In this document: piece by piece, positions 1,588 through 17,162 of the stretch
Layout: every line of letters begins with the position of its first letter
Position numbering within the stretch: the stretch's first letter is position 1
Assembly (NCBI GenBank): GCA_945883785.1
Contig: CAMCYD010000010.1
Span: 1-34,085 of the forward strand
Origin: Helicobacter pylori PMSS1
GTDB lineage: Bacteria > Campylobacterota > Campylobacteria > Campylobacterales > Arcobacteraceae
Reading direction: 5' to 3'
DNA length: 34,085 nt
The notes under the pieces: model-generated
What the model was told of the DNA's origin: nothing
Database searches by the model: none
Seen by the model: the letters and a program-made list of their open reading frames with translations, nothing else
Position numbers and translations under genes: made by a program

Positions 1588-2058
1588 GTGATTTATATCT
1601 TTTTATATCTATTTTTAGAGGTGATGGTTTCCTCTTATTTTATTTCCTTACTAGGTGGATTTTACACTTTTTTGGAAATAATTATTTCAGCATTTATCGG
1701 TGTATTTTTACTCAAAAACTTCAAATACTCGCTTATGCTTAATATTGTAGCCCTAACAAAAGGTGAGATAACTCAACAAGATTTTATCAAACAAAATGTT
1801 GCAAATGCTATTGGAGCAATTTTGCTCATTGTCCCTGGTTTTTTGACTGATATTATAGGGGTGTTGCTGCAATTTGGTCTTTTATCGATGTTGCTTACAA
1901 AGATTTTTAGTTTTAAAAAAGAACCTAAAAATACCCAAAATGAAAATCCATTTGAATTTCAAGAGGAAAACTTTACATATAAACAAAAAAGGAGATACGA
2001 TGACGATGAAATTATTGATGTTGAAATTATTGACAGTAGCCATTCTATTAAGCATTAG
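1588..2058 (+). CDS. fxsA: FxsA-family membrane protein
   Basis: Small inner-membrane protein of the FxsA (F-exclusion suppressor) family, whose biochemical role is unknown. About 100 N-terminal residues are hydrophobic with several membrane segments. They include the family-typical stretch GAILLIVPGFLTDIIG, followed by a charged, Asp/Glu-rich cytoplasmic tail. I chose GTG 1588 because AAAGGGG (1574-1580) is 7 nt upstream; TTG codons at 1582 and 1585 are too close to it. It is the first gene of a plus-strand operon. Its last 59 nt overlap the next gene, so the acidic tail shares sequence with that protein's signal peptide. Confidence 0.85.
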   Translation: MIYIFLYLFLEVMVSSYFISLLGGFYTFLEIIISAFIGVFLLKNFKYSLMLNIVALTKGEITQQDFIKQNVANAIGAILLIVPGFLTDIIGVLLQFGLLSMLLTKIFSFKKEPKNTQNENPFEFQEENFTYKQKRRYDDDEIIDVEIIDSSHSIKH

Positions 2059-2839
2059 TGCAAATGCAAGTGATATAGATAAAAAAATCTTTTCTTATGA
2101 AAAGCAAAGGATAAGTGCAAATCCAGCCGTTCAACTCAAAGATTTAAAATTAGTTTTTTCAAAAAAATTAGAAAATAATTGGACGGGATATCTTTTTTCT
2201 ATCTCTATAGTGTATCAAGGAAAATATGTGAACACAAACGATATTTTATTCTCAAATGGCACGGAGGTAACTGGTGAGCTTAAAAAACTTACAGGATTTG
2301 ATTTTAAAAGACTGATGCATCCTACTTTAGGGAGCGAATACTATGACAAAAAAAGACTTATAGCTGGTAATGTAGATGCCAAAAATAAATTAGTTGTGTT
2401 TAGTGACCCACTCTGTCCAAATTGTACTGCTGATATGCCAGAAATTATAAAAAATGTACAAAACAATCCTAAAATTTTTGCACTCTATTATTTTGCATTT
2501 CCACTAGATATGCATCCAACTGCAAAAACTATCGCTAAAGCTAGTAAATTAGCAGAATTAAAAGGGCAAAAAGATGTACCTCATAGACTTTATACTGCAG
2601 ATTTTGATAAATTCTTTGACCCGTATGAGCTAAAAGACAATCAAAAAGCACTCGATGCTTTCAATAAAGTCTTTAAAGCGACATTTACGATGAATGAGCT
2701 CAACAATACAACAGTTACAAGTAGTTTAGACGAGGATATGAAACTAGCAGAAAAAGCATTTGTGAATGGGACACCAACTTTATTTTTAAATGGTGAAATT
2801 GATGTTACAAGAAGTGAATACAAAGGAAAAATAAAATAA
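2000..2839 (+). CDS. Periplasmic thiol:disulfide interchange protein, DsbA/DsbG-like
   Basis: Secreted thioredoxin-fold protein of about 279 aa. A signal peptide (hydrophobic run about residues 4-20, likely cleavage near ANA/SD at 23) is followed by an N-terminal region of about 100 residues. The redox motif C139-P-N-C142 sits in DPLCPNCTAD and a cis-Pro loop in GTPTLF near the C-terminus. The arrangement resembles DsbC/DsbG-type isomerases or a dedicated oxidase; which direction it works is not decidable here. Start at ATG 2000 is set by GGAG at 1991-1994; a second ATG at 2006 is possible. The stop overlaps the hemC start by 1 nt (TAATG), so the two are coupled. Confidence 0.85.
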   Translation: MTMKLLMLKLLTVAILLSISANASDIDKKIFSYEKQRISANPAVQLKDLKLVFSKKLENNWTGYLFSISIVYQGKYVNTNDILFSNGTEVTGELKKLTGFDFKRLMHPTLGSEYYDKKRLIAGNVDAKNKLVVFSDPLCPNCTADMPEIIKNVQNNPKIFALYYFAFPLDMHPTAKTIAKASKLAELKGQKDVPHRLYTADFDKFFDPYELKDNQKALDAFNKVFKATFTMNELNNTTVTSSLDEDMKLAEKAFVNGTPTLFLNGEIDVTRSEYKGKIK

Positions 2840-3807
2840 TGAATAACCCAAATAAAATTATAATAGCTACAAGAAGAAGTGACCTTGCTCTTTGGCAAGC
2901 ATATTTTGTAAAAGATAAAATTGAAAATACTTATCCTGAAATAGAGGTGGAACTCAATCTTATCACTTCAAATGGAGATAAAGTTTTGGATAAACCGCTT
3001 GCACTTATCGGAGGAAAAGGACACTTTACAAAAGAACTTGAGGATGAAATGCTTGCTGGAAATGCTCATATGGCTGTTCATAGTCTCAAGGATGTCCCAA
3101 CATTTATCCCAGATGGATTAGAGCTTGTCGCTATTACGGAAAGACAAGATCAAAGCGATGTGTTTTTGTCGCACAAATACAAAACTATAAGAGAACTTCC
3201 GCAAGGTGCGGTAGTTGGAACTACAAGTTTACGAAGACGAATGCAGCTTTTGAAAATGAGACCAGATTTGAAAGTACAGGATTTAAGAGGAAATGTCAAT
3301 ACTAGACTTAGAAAGCTTGCTGAAGGTCAATATGATGCTATTATACTGGCATTTATAGGACTTTTTAGACTCAATCTTTTAAAAGACATACCATTTGTAG
3401 AAAAACTTCCATTAGCTTTTATGATACCTCCGATGGGTCAAGCTGCACTTGGGATAGAGATAGTATGTGGAGATGAGAGAATTAGAGAGATAGCTATGAT
3501 ACTCAATCATGAACCAACATTTATGGCTACAAAAGTTGAGAGAGATTTTATTTCAGTCATTGGAGCAGGATGTTCTGCACCTGTCGCTTGTAATGCTACT
3601 ATTATTGGTGATATTGTCACTCTTCAAACGATGATAGGGTATCCTGACGGATCAAATATTATCCATGAGAGTTTATCTGTACGACTCGGGGAACACAATA
3701 CTTTGGGTCAGAAAATGGCAAATTTGATGATAGGGAAAGGTGTGCTAGAGATACTACAAAAGGCACCGTCTTTAGCATTTAAAGACACGAGACCCGAACG
3801 AATTTAG
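2839..3807 (+). CDS. hemC: Hydroxymethylbilane synthase (porphobilinogen deaminase)
   Basis: Condenses four porphobilinogens to hydroxymethylbilane in heme/siroheme synthesis. It has 322 residues, normal for the family. Visible motifs are the catalytic Asp in HSLKDVP (D85), the Arg-rich substrate-binding segments around GTTSLRRRMQL and DLRGNVNTRL, and the dipyrromethane-cofactor cysteine in GAGCSAP (C245). The helix usually reading AAAGLKRL is AFIGLFRLN here, a mild deviation. It lies in an operon with an upstream thiol oxidoreductase and a downstream Fe-S scaffold. hemJ, a later heme step, is at the far end of the window. Confidence 0.97.
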   Translation: MNNPNKIIIATRRSDLALWQAYFVKDKIENTYPEIEVELNLITSNGDKVLDKPLALIGGKGHFTKELEDEMLAGNAHMAVHSLKDVPTFIPDGLELVAITERQDQSDVFLSHKYKTIRELPQGAVVGTTSLRRRMQLLKMRPDLKVQDLRGNVNTRLRKLAEGQYDAIILAFIGLFRLNLLKDIPFVEKLPLAFMIPPMGQAALGIEIVCGDERIREIAMILNHEPTFMATKVERDFISVIGAGCSAPVACNATIIGDIVTLQTMIGYPDGSNIIHESLSVRLGEHNTLGQKMANLMIGKGVLEILQKAPSLAFKDTRPERI

Positions 3808-3834: not shown

Positions 3835-4320
3835 ATGATGGCAGATTTAAGCGAACACCAAATACAAGATGTAACGGCAGAGATTTTAGAGCATATGATG
3901 GCTCCAAAAAATTATGGGCAAATGGACAATCCTACTTGTACAGGGATGGGAGTTGATACCAAAACAGGCGAGTTTGCTCTTATTTATTTACAACTAGCTA
4001 ATGAAGATGTTATCGCTGATATTAAATATGGTTGCAATGCTTGTCAAGATACGGTTATCGCTGGGTCACTTTTTACAGAGATGATCAAAGGAATGAATTT
4101 GACTTATGCAAAAGATGCTACAAGAAGATTAGAATATAAACTTGAAGAAGCCCCTGCGAAACAGAGAGCTTGTTCTATGATGGTCATAAAAGCTTTTGAA
4201 GCTTCTTTGCTTCATAAGGCTAGCAAAGAGGCTGGTGGAAGTGAAGATATGTGTTCGATAGAACTCAATGAATCTTGTGAAGGTATGGATACAATAGGGG
4301 AAAATAATGAAAATGCTTAA
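3835..4320 (+). CDS. IscU/NifU N-terminal-type Fe-S cluster assembly scaffold
   Basis: Stand-alone U-type scaffold on which Fe-S clusters are built before transfer to apo-proteins. The three ligand cysteines are present at C35 (NPTCTGMG), C67 (YGCNACQDTVIAGS, with an extra C70) and C113 (QRACSMMV). The C-terminal tail past residue 125 carries two more cysteines (C140, C148) in an acidic region not typical of classical IscU. No cysteine desulfurase gene is adjacent. AGAAAGG lies upstream of paired ATGs at 3835 and 3838. The end overlaps the ferritin-like gene by 14 nt, suggesting co-production of an iron-binding partner. Confidence 0.85.
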   Translation: MMADLSEHQIQDVTAEILEHMMAPKNYGQMDNPTCTGMGVDTKTGEFALIYLQLANEDVIADIKYGCNACQDTVIAGSLFTEMIKGMNLTYAKDATRRLEYKLEEAPAKQRACSMMVIKAFEASLLHKASKEAGGSEDMCSIELNESCEGMDTIGENNENA

Positions 4321-5140
4321 TGAAATCTATCAAATAAAACATGAATTGTGGCTAAAAATTCTTTTTATTTCATTTGCAATACATGACGAAAAGATTAAAA
4401 ATGAATTATATGAAATTTCTCAAATGGAATTTCGTCATCTTAAATGGCTTAGCAATAAGCTAAAAGATGAAAATATTGGATACGACTATGATAGGTATGC
4501 TATTGATTTTGCAAAAGACACCTCTTTTGAATCTTTTACATATCTTATAAGTGAAATTCAACTTGTAATGAAATGCTACAATCCTGATGATGTTTTGTTC
4601 GCAAGGATGCTTAGTGACGAATATTACTTTATTGCTAAACTAAACCAATATCTCAAGAATAGTGAAAATTTAAAGTTAACAGCTTTCAATAAAAAGCGAA
4701 TTTATCAAAATAAAATTCTTTCAAAAGAATCACTAGATGCTCTTACAATCTTCCTTTTTGAGGAGACTTACAAAGAATATGAACTGATTTTGCTTTATGC
4801 TTATATGCAAAATAATACAAAGGATATTACGCAATATAGTGTGTATCAAGATTTAATCGATGAGTCACATTATCATCTTAAATGCTTCGGAAATATGCTT
4901 TCTATTATGGGAATATTAGCGATTCCAAGAATGCTTTTAAAAGAGATTTATAAAAGAAATGATATTAAACAATTCTTGATTGATGGGATTGAAGAAGAAA
5001 AGTTAGCAAAAGAGGAGTGTCAAAAATTAGCTTTAGCAGTGAAAGAAGATGAACTTTCAAAATTTTTCGAATTTATAAATTATCAGGAAAATTTTCATAT
5101 AGAACTTATGAAAAAAGCTATAAAGTATATAGCTGATTAA
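4307..5140 (+). CDS. Tandem ferritin-like (helical, iron-binding) protein
   Basis: A 277-aa all-helical soluble protein without signal peptide that I do not recognise by name. It reads as two consecutive four-helix units. The N-terminal half has E41-x-x-H44 and an acidic SDEYYF segment near 103-108. The C-terminal half has an Glu-rich helix at 152-159, DESHYH at 185-190, EEEKLAKEE near 229-237 and E261-x-x-H264. Spaced Glu and ExxH pairs are the ferritin/rubrerythrin di-iron pattern, better kept in the second half. AGGGG sits 6 nt before ATG 4307. Overlap with the IscU-like gene suggests a role in iron supply or Fe-S protection, which is inference. Confidence 0.65.
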   Translation: MKMLNEIYQIKHELWLKILFISFAIHDEKIKNELYEISQMEFRHLKWLSNKLKDENIGYDYDRYAIDFAKDTSFESFTYLISEIQLVMKCYNPDDVLFARMLSDEYYFIAKLNQYLKNSENLKLTAFNKKRIYQNKILSKESLDALTIFLFEETYKEYELILLYAYMQNNTKDITQYSVYQDLIDESHYHLKCFGNMLSIMGILAIPRMLLKEIYKRNDIKQFLIDGIEEEKLAKEECQKLALAVKEDELSKFFEFINYQENFHIELMKKAIKYIAD

Positions 5141-14290: not shown

Positions 14291-14695
14291 ATGGAACATT
14301 TATTATATTCTTCAGACGAGATGTTTTCGTCTACATATTTAATTAGACAAAGTAAACAAATATTTGATAAATTAAATGCGAAAGAGATAGCCAAAGCAGT
14401 TATCTTACGAGATGGAAAACCCTCATTTATAATGCTAGAGTTTGATAATTATGAAAAAATAATGGCTGACTATGATATGTTAAAAGACAACTCTTTAAAA
14501 TTCAAGCAAAATAAGAAACAAACTAAAATACAAACTATAGTACAAAATACAATTACGAATGAAGATACATCCGTAACAAAAATAATAGAGAATGAAGCTC
14601 CAGTTTCTATTGTATATGATGAATTTCAAGTTGATTTAGAAGATGATTTTCAAAATGAACAAAGTGGCGAAATGAAAGACTTTTGGAATAAATAA
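14291..14695 (+). CDS. Phd/YefM-like protein without a toxin partner
   Basis: A 134-aa protein. Residues about 12-62 match the pattern of Phd/YefM antitoxin N-terminal domains: a helix ending in QSKQIFDKL, a strand with KAVILRDGKPSFIMLEF, then NYEKIM. The remaining 70 residues are Gln/Lys-rich then strongly acidic and probably disordered, ending DFWNK. No RelE/Doc-type toxin gene is adjacent. Instead the stop overlaps the sdhA start by 1 nt (TAATG), so it is translationally coupled to the flavoprotein. A regulatory or assembly role for the reductase is a guess. Confidence 0.7.
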   Translation: MEHLLYSSDEMFSSTYLIRQSKQIFDKLNAKEIAKAVILRDGKPSFIMLEFDNYEKIMADYDMLKDNSLKFKQNKKQTKIQTIVQNTITNEDTSVTKIIENEAPVSIVYDEFQVDLEDDFQNEQSGEMKDFWNK

Positions 14696-16281
14696 TGAAG
14701 TTTGATTATGATGTTATTATTATTGGAAGTGGAGGAGCTGCGCTCAGTTGTGCTATTAGGGCAAAGCAAAAAGGATTGTCAGTTGCAATCATTACAAAGT
14801 CAAATACAACTGCTTCTCAAACGGTTCAGGCTCAAGGTGGGTTAAATGGTGTGCTGGATGATGGTAGCGATACCATAAAAGCTCATATTGAAGATACTTT
14901 GAAATCCTCTAGCGAAATAGGGGATATTGAAGCTATAACATTTATGTGTGAAAATGCTAGAGAGGCTATAGAATGGCTTGATAGTCTGGGTGTTCCTTTC
15001 AGTAGAGATGAAAATAATCAAATAGCAAGAAGACAATTGGGCGGTGCAACTGCTAAACGAGCTTGTTATAGTTCTGATTATACTGGTTTAAAAATACTTC
15101 ATACACTGTATGACACCACTATTAAACTCAATATCCCAATATTTGAAAATTGTCTTTTACTGGATTTGATCATAAGCCATGGAGAAGTTTTTGGAATAAA
15201 CTATCTTGAACTTAAAACATCTGAGATAAAACAACTCTTTGGTGGAAATATCGTGCTCGCAACTGGTGGATACGGTGGAGTTTATCATGGATTTACTACG
15301 AATAGCAAAAATACTACAGCGGATGGAATTATGGCTGGTTTTAGAGCTGGAGTTGAGCTTGAAAATATGGAATTTATTCAGTTTCATCCAACTGCACTAC
15401 TTGACAGATTTATACTTATTAGTGAATCAGCACGAGGAGAAGGTGGTTATTTGGTCACAAAAGATGAAAAACGATTTGTGAATGAGTTGCTCTCGAGGGA
15501 TTTGGTTGCACGAGAAATTTACAAAAAGATTCTTAACGATGAAGAGGTTTTTCTTGATTTGCGACACATATCTAAAGAAAAATTGCTTCATTTGCTTCCT
15601 CAAGAATATAAACTTATCTTTAAATTTACTTCATTGCAGATGGATAAAGACTTAATTCCTATAACACCAGCTACACACTATACAATGGGAGGATTGAAGT
15701 GTAATAAAGACTCTAGAACTTCTTTAAATAATCTTTATGCAATTGGTGAAGTAGCTTCAAATGGTGTACATGGTGCCAATCGACTTGGAGGAAACTCGCT
15801 TTTAGAAATAGTGGTATTTGGGAAAAAATTGGGAGACTCGCTTCAGCCTTCAATCCTTTCATTGGAGGTGAGTGACAATACAACTTTCGAAAGAAATATG
15901 AAAGACATTGAATATATTTTTGATAATATTCCTACCTTGGACTTTTATAAATATAGAAAAAAGCTAGGAGAAATAATGTTTCTAAATGTTGGTTTGTTTA
16001 GAACACATGAGGGATTATTGGAAGCTTTCAATTTTGTTCAGGATATTATTGAAAATCTCGAAAAATTTAGTACTGATGATAAATCAAAATTATTCAATAC
16101 AAATTTGATAGAATTTTTAGAATTTAGGAATTGTGTTTTTTGTGCAAAAACAATAATTTTGAGTGCAAAAGAGAGATGCGAAAGTAGAGGTTCTCATTTT
16201 AGAAATGATTTTCCTAAACCATCGGATACATATAAAAAATCAACAATTATAAAGAGTCACTTGCAAATTCAAAGATTTTGA
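14695..16281 (+). CDS. sdhA: Fumarate reductase/succinate dehydrogenase flavoprotein subunit
   Basis: FAD subunit interconverting succinate and fumarate, 528 aa. Visible motifs are the dinucleotide fold IIGSGGAALSC (9-19), FHPTALL, the catalytic region SARGEGGYLV, HYTMGGLK, and the FAD/substrate-binding HGANRLGGNSLLE. At the position of the His that binds FAD covalently in E. coli SdhA/FrdA (SHTV-x-A-x-GG) there is Gln42 (SQTVQAQGG), so FAD should be bound non-covalently. No Tat or Sec signal is seen, so it is cytoplasmic. The last eight codons and stop come from a MITE-like element beginning at 16254. Without it the frame would end TIINNTFIVK just before sdhB. Confidence 0.92.
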   Translation: MKFDYDVIIIGSGGAALSCAIRAKQKGLSVAIITKSNTTASQTVQAQGGLNGVLDDGSDTIKAHIEDTLKSSSEIGDIEAITFMCENAREAIEWLDSLGVPFSRDENNQIARRQLGGATAKRACYSSDYTGLKILHTLYDTTIKLNIPIFENCLLLDLIISHGEVFGINYLELKTSEIKQLFGGNIVLATGGYGGVYHGFTTNSKNTTADGIMAGFRAGVELENMEFIQFHPTALLDRFILISESARGEGGYLVTKDEKRFVNELLSRDLVAREIYKKILNDEEVFLDLRHISKEKLLHLLPQEYKLIFKFTSLQMDKDLIPITPATHYTMGGLKCNKDSRTSLNNLYAIGEVASNGVHGANRLGGNSLLEIVVFGKKLGDSLQPSILSLEVSDNTTFERNMKDIEYIFDNIPTLDFYKYRKKLGEIMFLNVGLFRTHEGLLEAFNFVQDIIENLEKFSTDDKSKLFNTNLIEFLEFRNCVFCAKTIILSAKERCESRGSHFRNDFPKPSDTYKKSTIIKSHLQIQRF

Positions 16282-16413
16282 GTATGAATAGTAGCAATTA
16301 TTAGATTTTCACTTTAAAAATCACTATTTACTCCCTGTAAATGGTTATTTTTAAAGGGGAAAGATGATGATTGAAACTGTTTATAATCATTTGTTTGAAT
16401 TCGCAAGTGACTC
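16254..16413. mobile_element. MITE-like palindromic element, copy 1
   Basis: A 160-bp element with near-perfect 20-bp terminal inverted repeats (GAGTCACTTGCAAATTCAAA, 19 of 20 matching). It is flanked by a TAAA direct repeat (16250-16253 and 16414-16417) that looks like a 4-bp target duplication. The whole element folds back on itself as an imperfect long hairpin with an apical ATTTAC/GTAAAT stem. A second copy at 25277-25437 differs by about a dozen bases counted by eye. It encodes no transposase. It interrupts the sdhA-sdhB junction and supplies the sdhA stop codon. Confidence 0.88.
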
Positions 16414-16445
16414 TAAACAATACCTTTATCGTAAAGTAGGATGAG

Positions 16446-17162
16446 ATGAAAATTAGTATAAATAAAATTGAATTTGATATTGATGATAAAATAACAAATC
16501 TACTTGATGCATTTTTGTATATTAAAGAAAATATCAACAAAAGTTTTGCTTTTAATTATGGTTGTAGAAGCGGTAATTGCGGTACTTGCAGTGTGCGAGT
16601 GAATGGAAGTGAAGTTCTGGCTTGTACTGCCAATATCAAGAATCTTGATGAGATTTTACCACTGAAGAATCTTCCTGTAGTGAAAGATTTGATTGTTGAT
16701 AATGAAAATATAAAAATCAAATTAAAGCTCGCGGAGGCTTTTTTATCAGTAACGGATACTAAAATTACAATTAGTCAAAATGAAGTAGATAAAATTGATA
16801 TTGAAAGTAGTTGTATCTTGTGCAATAGCTGTTATAGTTCATGCCCAGTATATGAAGCAAACCAAGAATTTTTAGGTCCATTTGCGCTCACTCGTGCATA
16901 TAGATATCTCAACGATACAAAAGAGTTATCTAACAAATCTAAGCTAGATGCTATTCAAAGTAATGGTGTGTGGGATTGTACTTTGTGTGGAGCTTGTAAT
17001 ATGGTTTGTCCACAAAATATTGATATTAAAAATGATATATTAAAATTACAAAATTTGAGTGTTCAAAATGGTTATCCAAATCCAGCCTTTAGTTCTTCAA
17101 ACACGTTTAGTGATGGATTTAATTCGTTTTTAAGTGGAGGATTTAACCCTAACGGATTTTAA
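16446..17162 (+). CDS. sdhB: Fumarate reductase/succinate dehydrogenase iron-sulfur subunit
   Basis: Electron-transfer subunit of 238 aa. A plant-type [2Fe-2S] domain has C40, C45, C48 and C60. Two further sets follow: C123-x2-C126-x2-C129-x3-C133-P and C178-x2-C181-x2-C184-x3-C188-P. In classical SdhB/FrdB the last motif is C-x5-C-x3-C and carries [3Fe-4S]. The extra Cys181 suggests a second [4Fe-4S], as in type E (archaeal-like) enzymes. An unusual Ser/Phe/Gly/Asn-rich tail covers 214-238. AGGATGAG precedes the ATG. No membrane-anchor or SdhE (CCG-domain) gene follows. Confidence 0.92.
   Translation: MKISINKIEFDIDDKITNLLDAFLYIKENINKSFAFNYGCRSGNCGTCSVRVNGSEVLACTANIKNLDEILPLKNLPVVKDLIVDNENIKIKLKLAEAFLSVTDTKITISQNEVDKIDIESSCILCNSCYSSCPVYEANQEFLGPFALTRAYRYLNDTKELSNKSKLDAIQSNGVWDCTLCGACNMVCPQNIDIKNDILKLQNLSVQNGYPNPAFSSSNTFSDGFNSFLSGGFNPNGF

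Follow-up and report, generated by a model that had tools for sequence, protein, structure and literature searches.

A conserved gene pair encoding an IscU-like protein without the first cluster cysteine and a tandem ferritin-like protein in Campylobacterota

In terms of iron supply to an IscU-type scaffold, the described precedent is the di-iron protein YtfE, which, according to passages of PMC8117158, interacts with IscU and promotes cluster formation on it; the same passages say that the physiological donor of iron for assembling Fe-S clusters has "remained elusive". YtfE is called hemerythrin-like in a passage of PMC9268430. The pair of genes described here encodes an IscU-like protein, U, and a tandem ferritin-like protein, F, and lies in a 34,085-nucleotide stretch of DNA (contig CAMCYD010000010.1), referred to below as the window. 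The U–F pair is real and conserved, and it is apparently unnamed, a limited search of the open-access literature having returned no earlier description of it; its parts are known ones in variant form, and it does not amount to a system of a new kind. What makes it of interest is that the scaffold has lost its first cysteine, has an invariant cysteine in its tail, and is tightly linked, genetically, to a protein of the di-iron type. We propose, with a probability of roughly 0.4, that the two proteins form an iron/iron-sulfur module in which F would act as iron donor or buffer and U as a scaffold or carrier that lacks the first cluster cysteine.

The IscU-like protein U

U (161 residues; positions 3835–4320, + strand) is assigned to the IscU/NifU_N fold by a Pfam match, an AF2 model, and a VIA alignment. 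The presence of an IscU-like protein upstream of a 277-residue open reading frame had been read from the sequence alone, and the Pfam profile search bears this out, with 53.2 bits against NifU_N (PF01592; cut-off 22). The protein scores far below the cut-offs of the equivalog models NifU_clost (61.1 versus 187.9) and iscU (38.9 versus 192.4). The AF2 model (pLDDT 87.3) aligns with IscU 2qq4 at a VIA Z of 16.6 and an rmsd of 1.7 over 118 residues.

Alignment to the NifU-domain structure 7c8n places Thr44-Gly45-Glu46 (3964–3972, +) where IscU has Cys-Gly-Asp, with Thr44 at the position of the first cluster cysteine and Glu46 at that of the aspartate. Residue 44 is a cysteine in none of the 83 U proteins that are paired with F, and Glu46 is found in 82 of them, the remaining row having a gap. 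Cys70 (4042–4044, +) and Cys113 (4171–4173, +; aligned to 7c8n) correspond to the second and third IscU cysteines and are each present in 83/83 paired U. Ala112, just before Cys113, takes the position of the IscU histidine in the 7c8n alignment, in which the PDB row is an H106A variant; the histidine is seen instead in the NifU of the same genome. Lacking the first IscU cysteine, U is thus not a standard scaffold.

The acidic, cysteine-containing tail that had been pointed out earlier is indeed present and holds two cysteines, of which Cys148 (4276–4278, +) is kept in 83/83 paired U and Cys140 is not conserved. Cys148 lies in a low-confidence part of the model, where the mean pLDDT is 77 for residues 141–150 and 38 for residues 151–160. 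Cys148, an invariant cysteine on a flexible tail, may replace the lost first cluster cysteine.

The sequence-only reading had also remarked that no desulfurase adjoins U, and none was found among the neighboring open reading frames of the window. The genes nifS and nifU sit next to each other on another contig (C26), and the NifU encoded there is canonical, with the motifs ESCGD, FGCG, and HCS and all three cysteines. U is therefore an additional paralogue, and a role for it as the main scaffold of the organism can be ruled out.

The tandem ferritin-like protein F

F (277 residues; 4307–5140, +) is predicted by AF2 (pLDDT 91.7, pTM 0.90) to fold into eight long helices that form two four-helix bundles, in agreement with the two ferritin-like bundles read from the sequence. 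The same reading had named a fold without a four-helix bundle, or orthologues without conserved Glu/His, as what would speak against it; neither was found, and the bundle 2 ligands are kept in orthologues. Conservation was followed in an alignment of the 101 non-identical sequences out of 110. Bundle 1 (residues 4–118; 4316–4660, +) has near-invariant His12 (99/100 rows), His44 (100/100 ungapped rows), and Asp104 (101 rows), and its metal site is incomplete. Bundle 2 (residues 140–276; 4724–5134, +) keeps Glu153 in 100 sequences and Glu157, Glu/Asp186, His190, Glu231, Glu261, and His264 in 101 each. With ligand roles assigned from sequence and helix position, the second bundle only has a complete putative di-iron ligand set of the 4-Glu/2-His type, and bundle 1 has lost much of such a site. 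Accordingly, the ExxH pairs ascribed to both bundles held up in part: E261xxH264 of bundle 2 is found in 101/101 rows, but E41xxH44 of bundle 1 does not stand, residue 41 being Glu in only 25/101 rows and Ala in 57. The second pair of bundle 2 is E/D186xxxH190, in 101/101 rows. Near-invariant residues without an assigned ligand role are Lys156, Tyr158, Arg100, and Cys238.

The two halves of F align with ferritin-like chains at VIA Z values of about 9.5–11.5, bundle 1 with bacterioferritin at about 11.5 over 123 residues and bundle 2 with Dps/ferritin at about 10. The best fold match of F is 3hl1, a ferritin-like protein from Caulobacter (Z 14.8, 189 residues), where helical bundles can score Z near 13 without meaning, a caveat of the fold-comparison tool. 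A Foldseek search with F gave no match at E < 0.001. Given both points, the link to the ferritin family leans more on sequence. The PDB entry 9viw (306 residues), titled "Bacterioferritin", is matched at E 8.6e-10 by the single sequence and at E 1e-15 by the profile over positions 12–268. It is a tandem ferritin-like homologue of F over nearly the whole length, in which the bundle 2 patterns ESxxH and QExxH align with F, although the two proteins are only distantly related. Among Pfam families, F stays under the cut-offs of Ferritin_2 (15.8 versus 24.7) and Rubrerythrin (13.9 versus 22.8); Rubrerythrin is matched weakly by 28 of 59 F members, at best with 2e-5, and no hemerythrin family is among the Pfam matches of F.

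Conservation and distribution of the pair

The genes for U and F, both on the + strand, overlap by 14 bp (4307–4320), as had been seen in the sequence. An AGGGG that resembles a ribosome-binding site (4296–4300, +) lies inside U, 6 nucleotides before the ATG of F, which fits coupled translation of the two proteins, and such coupling is probable. Among the best 80 of 278 confirmed F matches, U is directly upstream of F on the same strand at 72 loci. The other eight comprise five contig ends (less than 600 bp of upstream sequence) and three loci where the genes are truly separate (L052, L053, and L078); in the genomes assigned to the first two (G003 and G035, respectively), U is on a different contig from F. 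Record titles of these 80 matches are Campylobacterota or uninformative, except for one Desulfosporosinus (L050). In the combined set of loci, U occupies position −1 of F in 81/91. Open reading frames of both sets (80 named and 91 combined loci) were called from the earliest start, so overlap lengths in these surveys are upper values.

Both genes are under purifying selection, with dN/dS of 0.06–0.29 in 9 of 13 comparisons; dS is saturated in the remaining four, all of F. A mirror-tree comparison of U with F gives r 0.95, uncorrected for the species tree. Conservation of the pair rules out a meaningless ordinary gene overlap. A larger operon was considered and set aside, there being no conserved third gene (the next commonest neighbor occurs at 33/91 loci), as was plasmid spread of F, for which 72,556 plasmids gave no match. 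In the window, genes for a DsbC-like protein and hemC (1874–3807) precede U, with a gap of 27 bp between hemC and U. A hemC-like gene before U is limited to L048–L050 among nine loci viewed, and a module tied to haem synthesis was rejected, the order being absent from L051 and from the other lineages viewed. Genes for a fumarate-reductase-like flavoprotein and iron-sulfur subunit are found at 14695–17162, and L053 has similar genes some 3 kb upstream of F (names read by eye). An Rfam scan of the window gave no match.

Of 397 genomes in the class, 80 have F and 69 have paired-type U, with 68 carrying the two together. Paired-type U was defined by a match of at least 140 bits or one split between contigs (G376 and G241); the remaining 145 of the 214 genomes with a U match carry NifU or other paralogues. 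U and F are inherited together. The sole paired-type U genome without an F match is G361. Conversely, F occurs without U in 11/80 F genomes, nine of family f15 together with G019 and G108 (G348, a twelfth such genome, reflects a contig break and is left out), so partnering U cannot be all that F does, and it has a role of its own where U is missing. In 8/8 f15 loci (L139 and L154–L160), which cover eight of the nine F-only genomes of that family (G132 is left out), the U-less F lies between a pdxA-like gene and a cluster resembling oorDABC (2-oxoglutarate oxidoreductase-like), with gene names read by eye. The sequence-only reading had suggested a scaffold coupled to an iron protein as a two-gene module and had asked whether the pair is conserved. 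The pair is conserved, in 72 of the 80 named loci and in 68 of 69 paired-type U genomes; the coupling as first read is borne out in part, with three amendments: U has no first cluster cysteine, bundle 1 of F has lost much of a di-iron site, and F also occurs alone.

Of 10 inspected U-type proteins encoded away from F, 9 have lost Cys113; this set leaves out the clearer paralogues L171 and L172 of the same alignment. Seven of the nine are variants with an insertion that have lost both Cys70 and Cys113, and the other two (G033 and G044) have lost Cys113 and the tail cysteine. The tenth, from G361, keeps all three cysteines in a genome without an F match. These losses indicate that the cysteines mostly go with F, G361 excepted. 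The insertion variants (L163–L168 and L170, of genomes G289, G411, G344, G363, G372, G385, and G291) keep the cysteine-containing tail and mostly adjoin a dCMP-deaminase-like gene (read by eye); F is absent from all of these genomes except G363, which carries one insertion variant plus a normal U–F pair. A further NifU_N-like paralogue (L172 and L044–L046) has PKN and, in most, C-x2-C (CDDC/CEEC). In L172 it adjoins ribonucleotide-reductase-like and radical-SAM-activase-like genes (read by eye).

ATP-citrate lyase (AclA), which marks the reductive TCA cycle, is strongly matched in 119 of the 397 genomes, namely in 78 of the 80 with F (all but G320 and G413) and in 41 of the 317 without. The 119 are drawn from 125 matching genomes, six weak matches of 23–27 bits (G011, G018, G025, G034, G293, and G403), three of them just above the cut-off, having been set aside; in the AclA comparison of 60 relatives, the weak matches of G011, G018, G020, G021, G025, G034, and G036 were set aside likewise. 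The association is confounded by lineage. Within family f1, AclA is present in 12/12 F genomes versus 5/25 others, and all four F genera are among the six AclA genera of 20 (chance about 0.003), a count that leaves shared ancestry partly in. The lineage pattern suggests that demand for the module is linked to reductive-TCA chemolithoautotrophy. With 41 of 119 AclA genomes devoid of F, the cycle does not depend on the module.

Possible functions and comparison with known systems

That U and F stand side by side and are co-inherited in many CO2-fixing Campylobacterota suggests a dedicated iron-handling module. In such a module, bundle 2 of F would bind a labile di-iron center, from which F would hand Fe2+ to U or for which it would serve as a buffer of Fe2+ on behalf of U. 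U would receive iron, perhaps also sulfide, and could hold iron or a small Fe-S unit through Cys70, Cys113, Glu46, and the tail cysteine, serving a set of Fe-S clients, or NifU, as their dedicated scaffold or carrier. Iron transfer from F to U, cluster binding, a U–F complex, and client proteins are what we infer here. A fuller version, in which bundle 2 feeds iron to an IscU variant that has exchanged Cys1 for a mobile-tail cysteine, with altered loading or release, and in which this arrangement is kept in Campylobacterota that fix CO2 by the reductive TCA cycle, is rather improbable.

The strongest rival is a protective, rubrerythrin-like function of F. F would then be a rubrerythrin- or ferroxidase-like remover of peroxide or free iron, with U as its electron or Fe-S partner, and the two would shield O2-sensitive Fe-S enzymes instead of taking part in assembly. 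The weak Rubrerythrin matches of F, its occurrence without U, and its association with the reductive TCA marker are all consistent with this, as is the position of F in L053 next to peroxiredoxin-like and Fur/PerR-like genes (read by eye). However, that neighborhood is not common to other loci, the Pfam matches of F include no redox domain, rubredoxin-like or otherwise, and we know of no redox precedent for U, which also counts against a protective function; we regard it as rather improbable.

There are two other explanations. U might be a pseudo-scaffold, regulating NifS/NifU or docking on them, with F as an iron sensor and no cluster built on U. Loss of Cys1 in all paired U and replacement of the IscU histidine by Ala, Val, or Ile would fit this, as would the related variants that have lost Cys2 and Cys3 too and kept much of the remaining sequence, but the invariant Cys70, Cys113, and Cys148 and the conserved Glu46 suggest that paired U takes part in metal or sulfur chemistry; we consider a pseudo-scaffold quite unlikely. 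Alternatively, F could be a di-iron enzyme that works as an oxidase or oxygenase in some unknown pathway, with U as its private metallation factor. The restriction of the full ligand set to one bundle, the many near-invariant non-ligand residues, and the pdxA-like neighbor in 8/8 inspected f15 loci can be rationalized in this way. No conserved substrate-pathway neighbor is seen outside f15, however, and most hosts of the pair live at low oxygen, which counts against an enzyme of this kind; we consider it very unlikely. An iron/iron-sulfur module of F and U would supply a function for two families that, under current models, go unnamed or are misnamed in sulfur- and hydrogen-oxidizing autotrophs. 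As scaffold variant and di-iron-type protein are co-inherited, one can say beforehand which protein would be the donor and which the acceptor, and the two can be tested jointly.

The architecture of U is that of the IscU/NifU N-terminal scaffold (PF01592), with which it shares the fold, the second and third cluster cysteines, and the general sequence; it differs in the changes Cys1 to Thr, Asp to Glu, and His to Ala, in its extra invariant tail cysteine, and in having no adjacent desulfurase. F shares four-helix bundles with Glu/His ligands with the rubrerythrin/ferritin/bacterioferritin superfamily, whereas it has two bundles per chain, the first of them incomplete, and reaches no family cut-off. 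With respect to RIC/YtfE, the passages of PMC8117158 allow a possible common principle, a di-iron helical-bundle protein feeding an IscU-type scaffold. YtfE, however, is hemerythrin-like as worded in PMC9268430, whereas F is a tandem, ferritin-like protein with a genetic tie to an IscU variant of its own.
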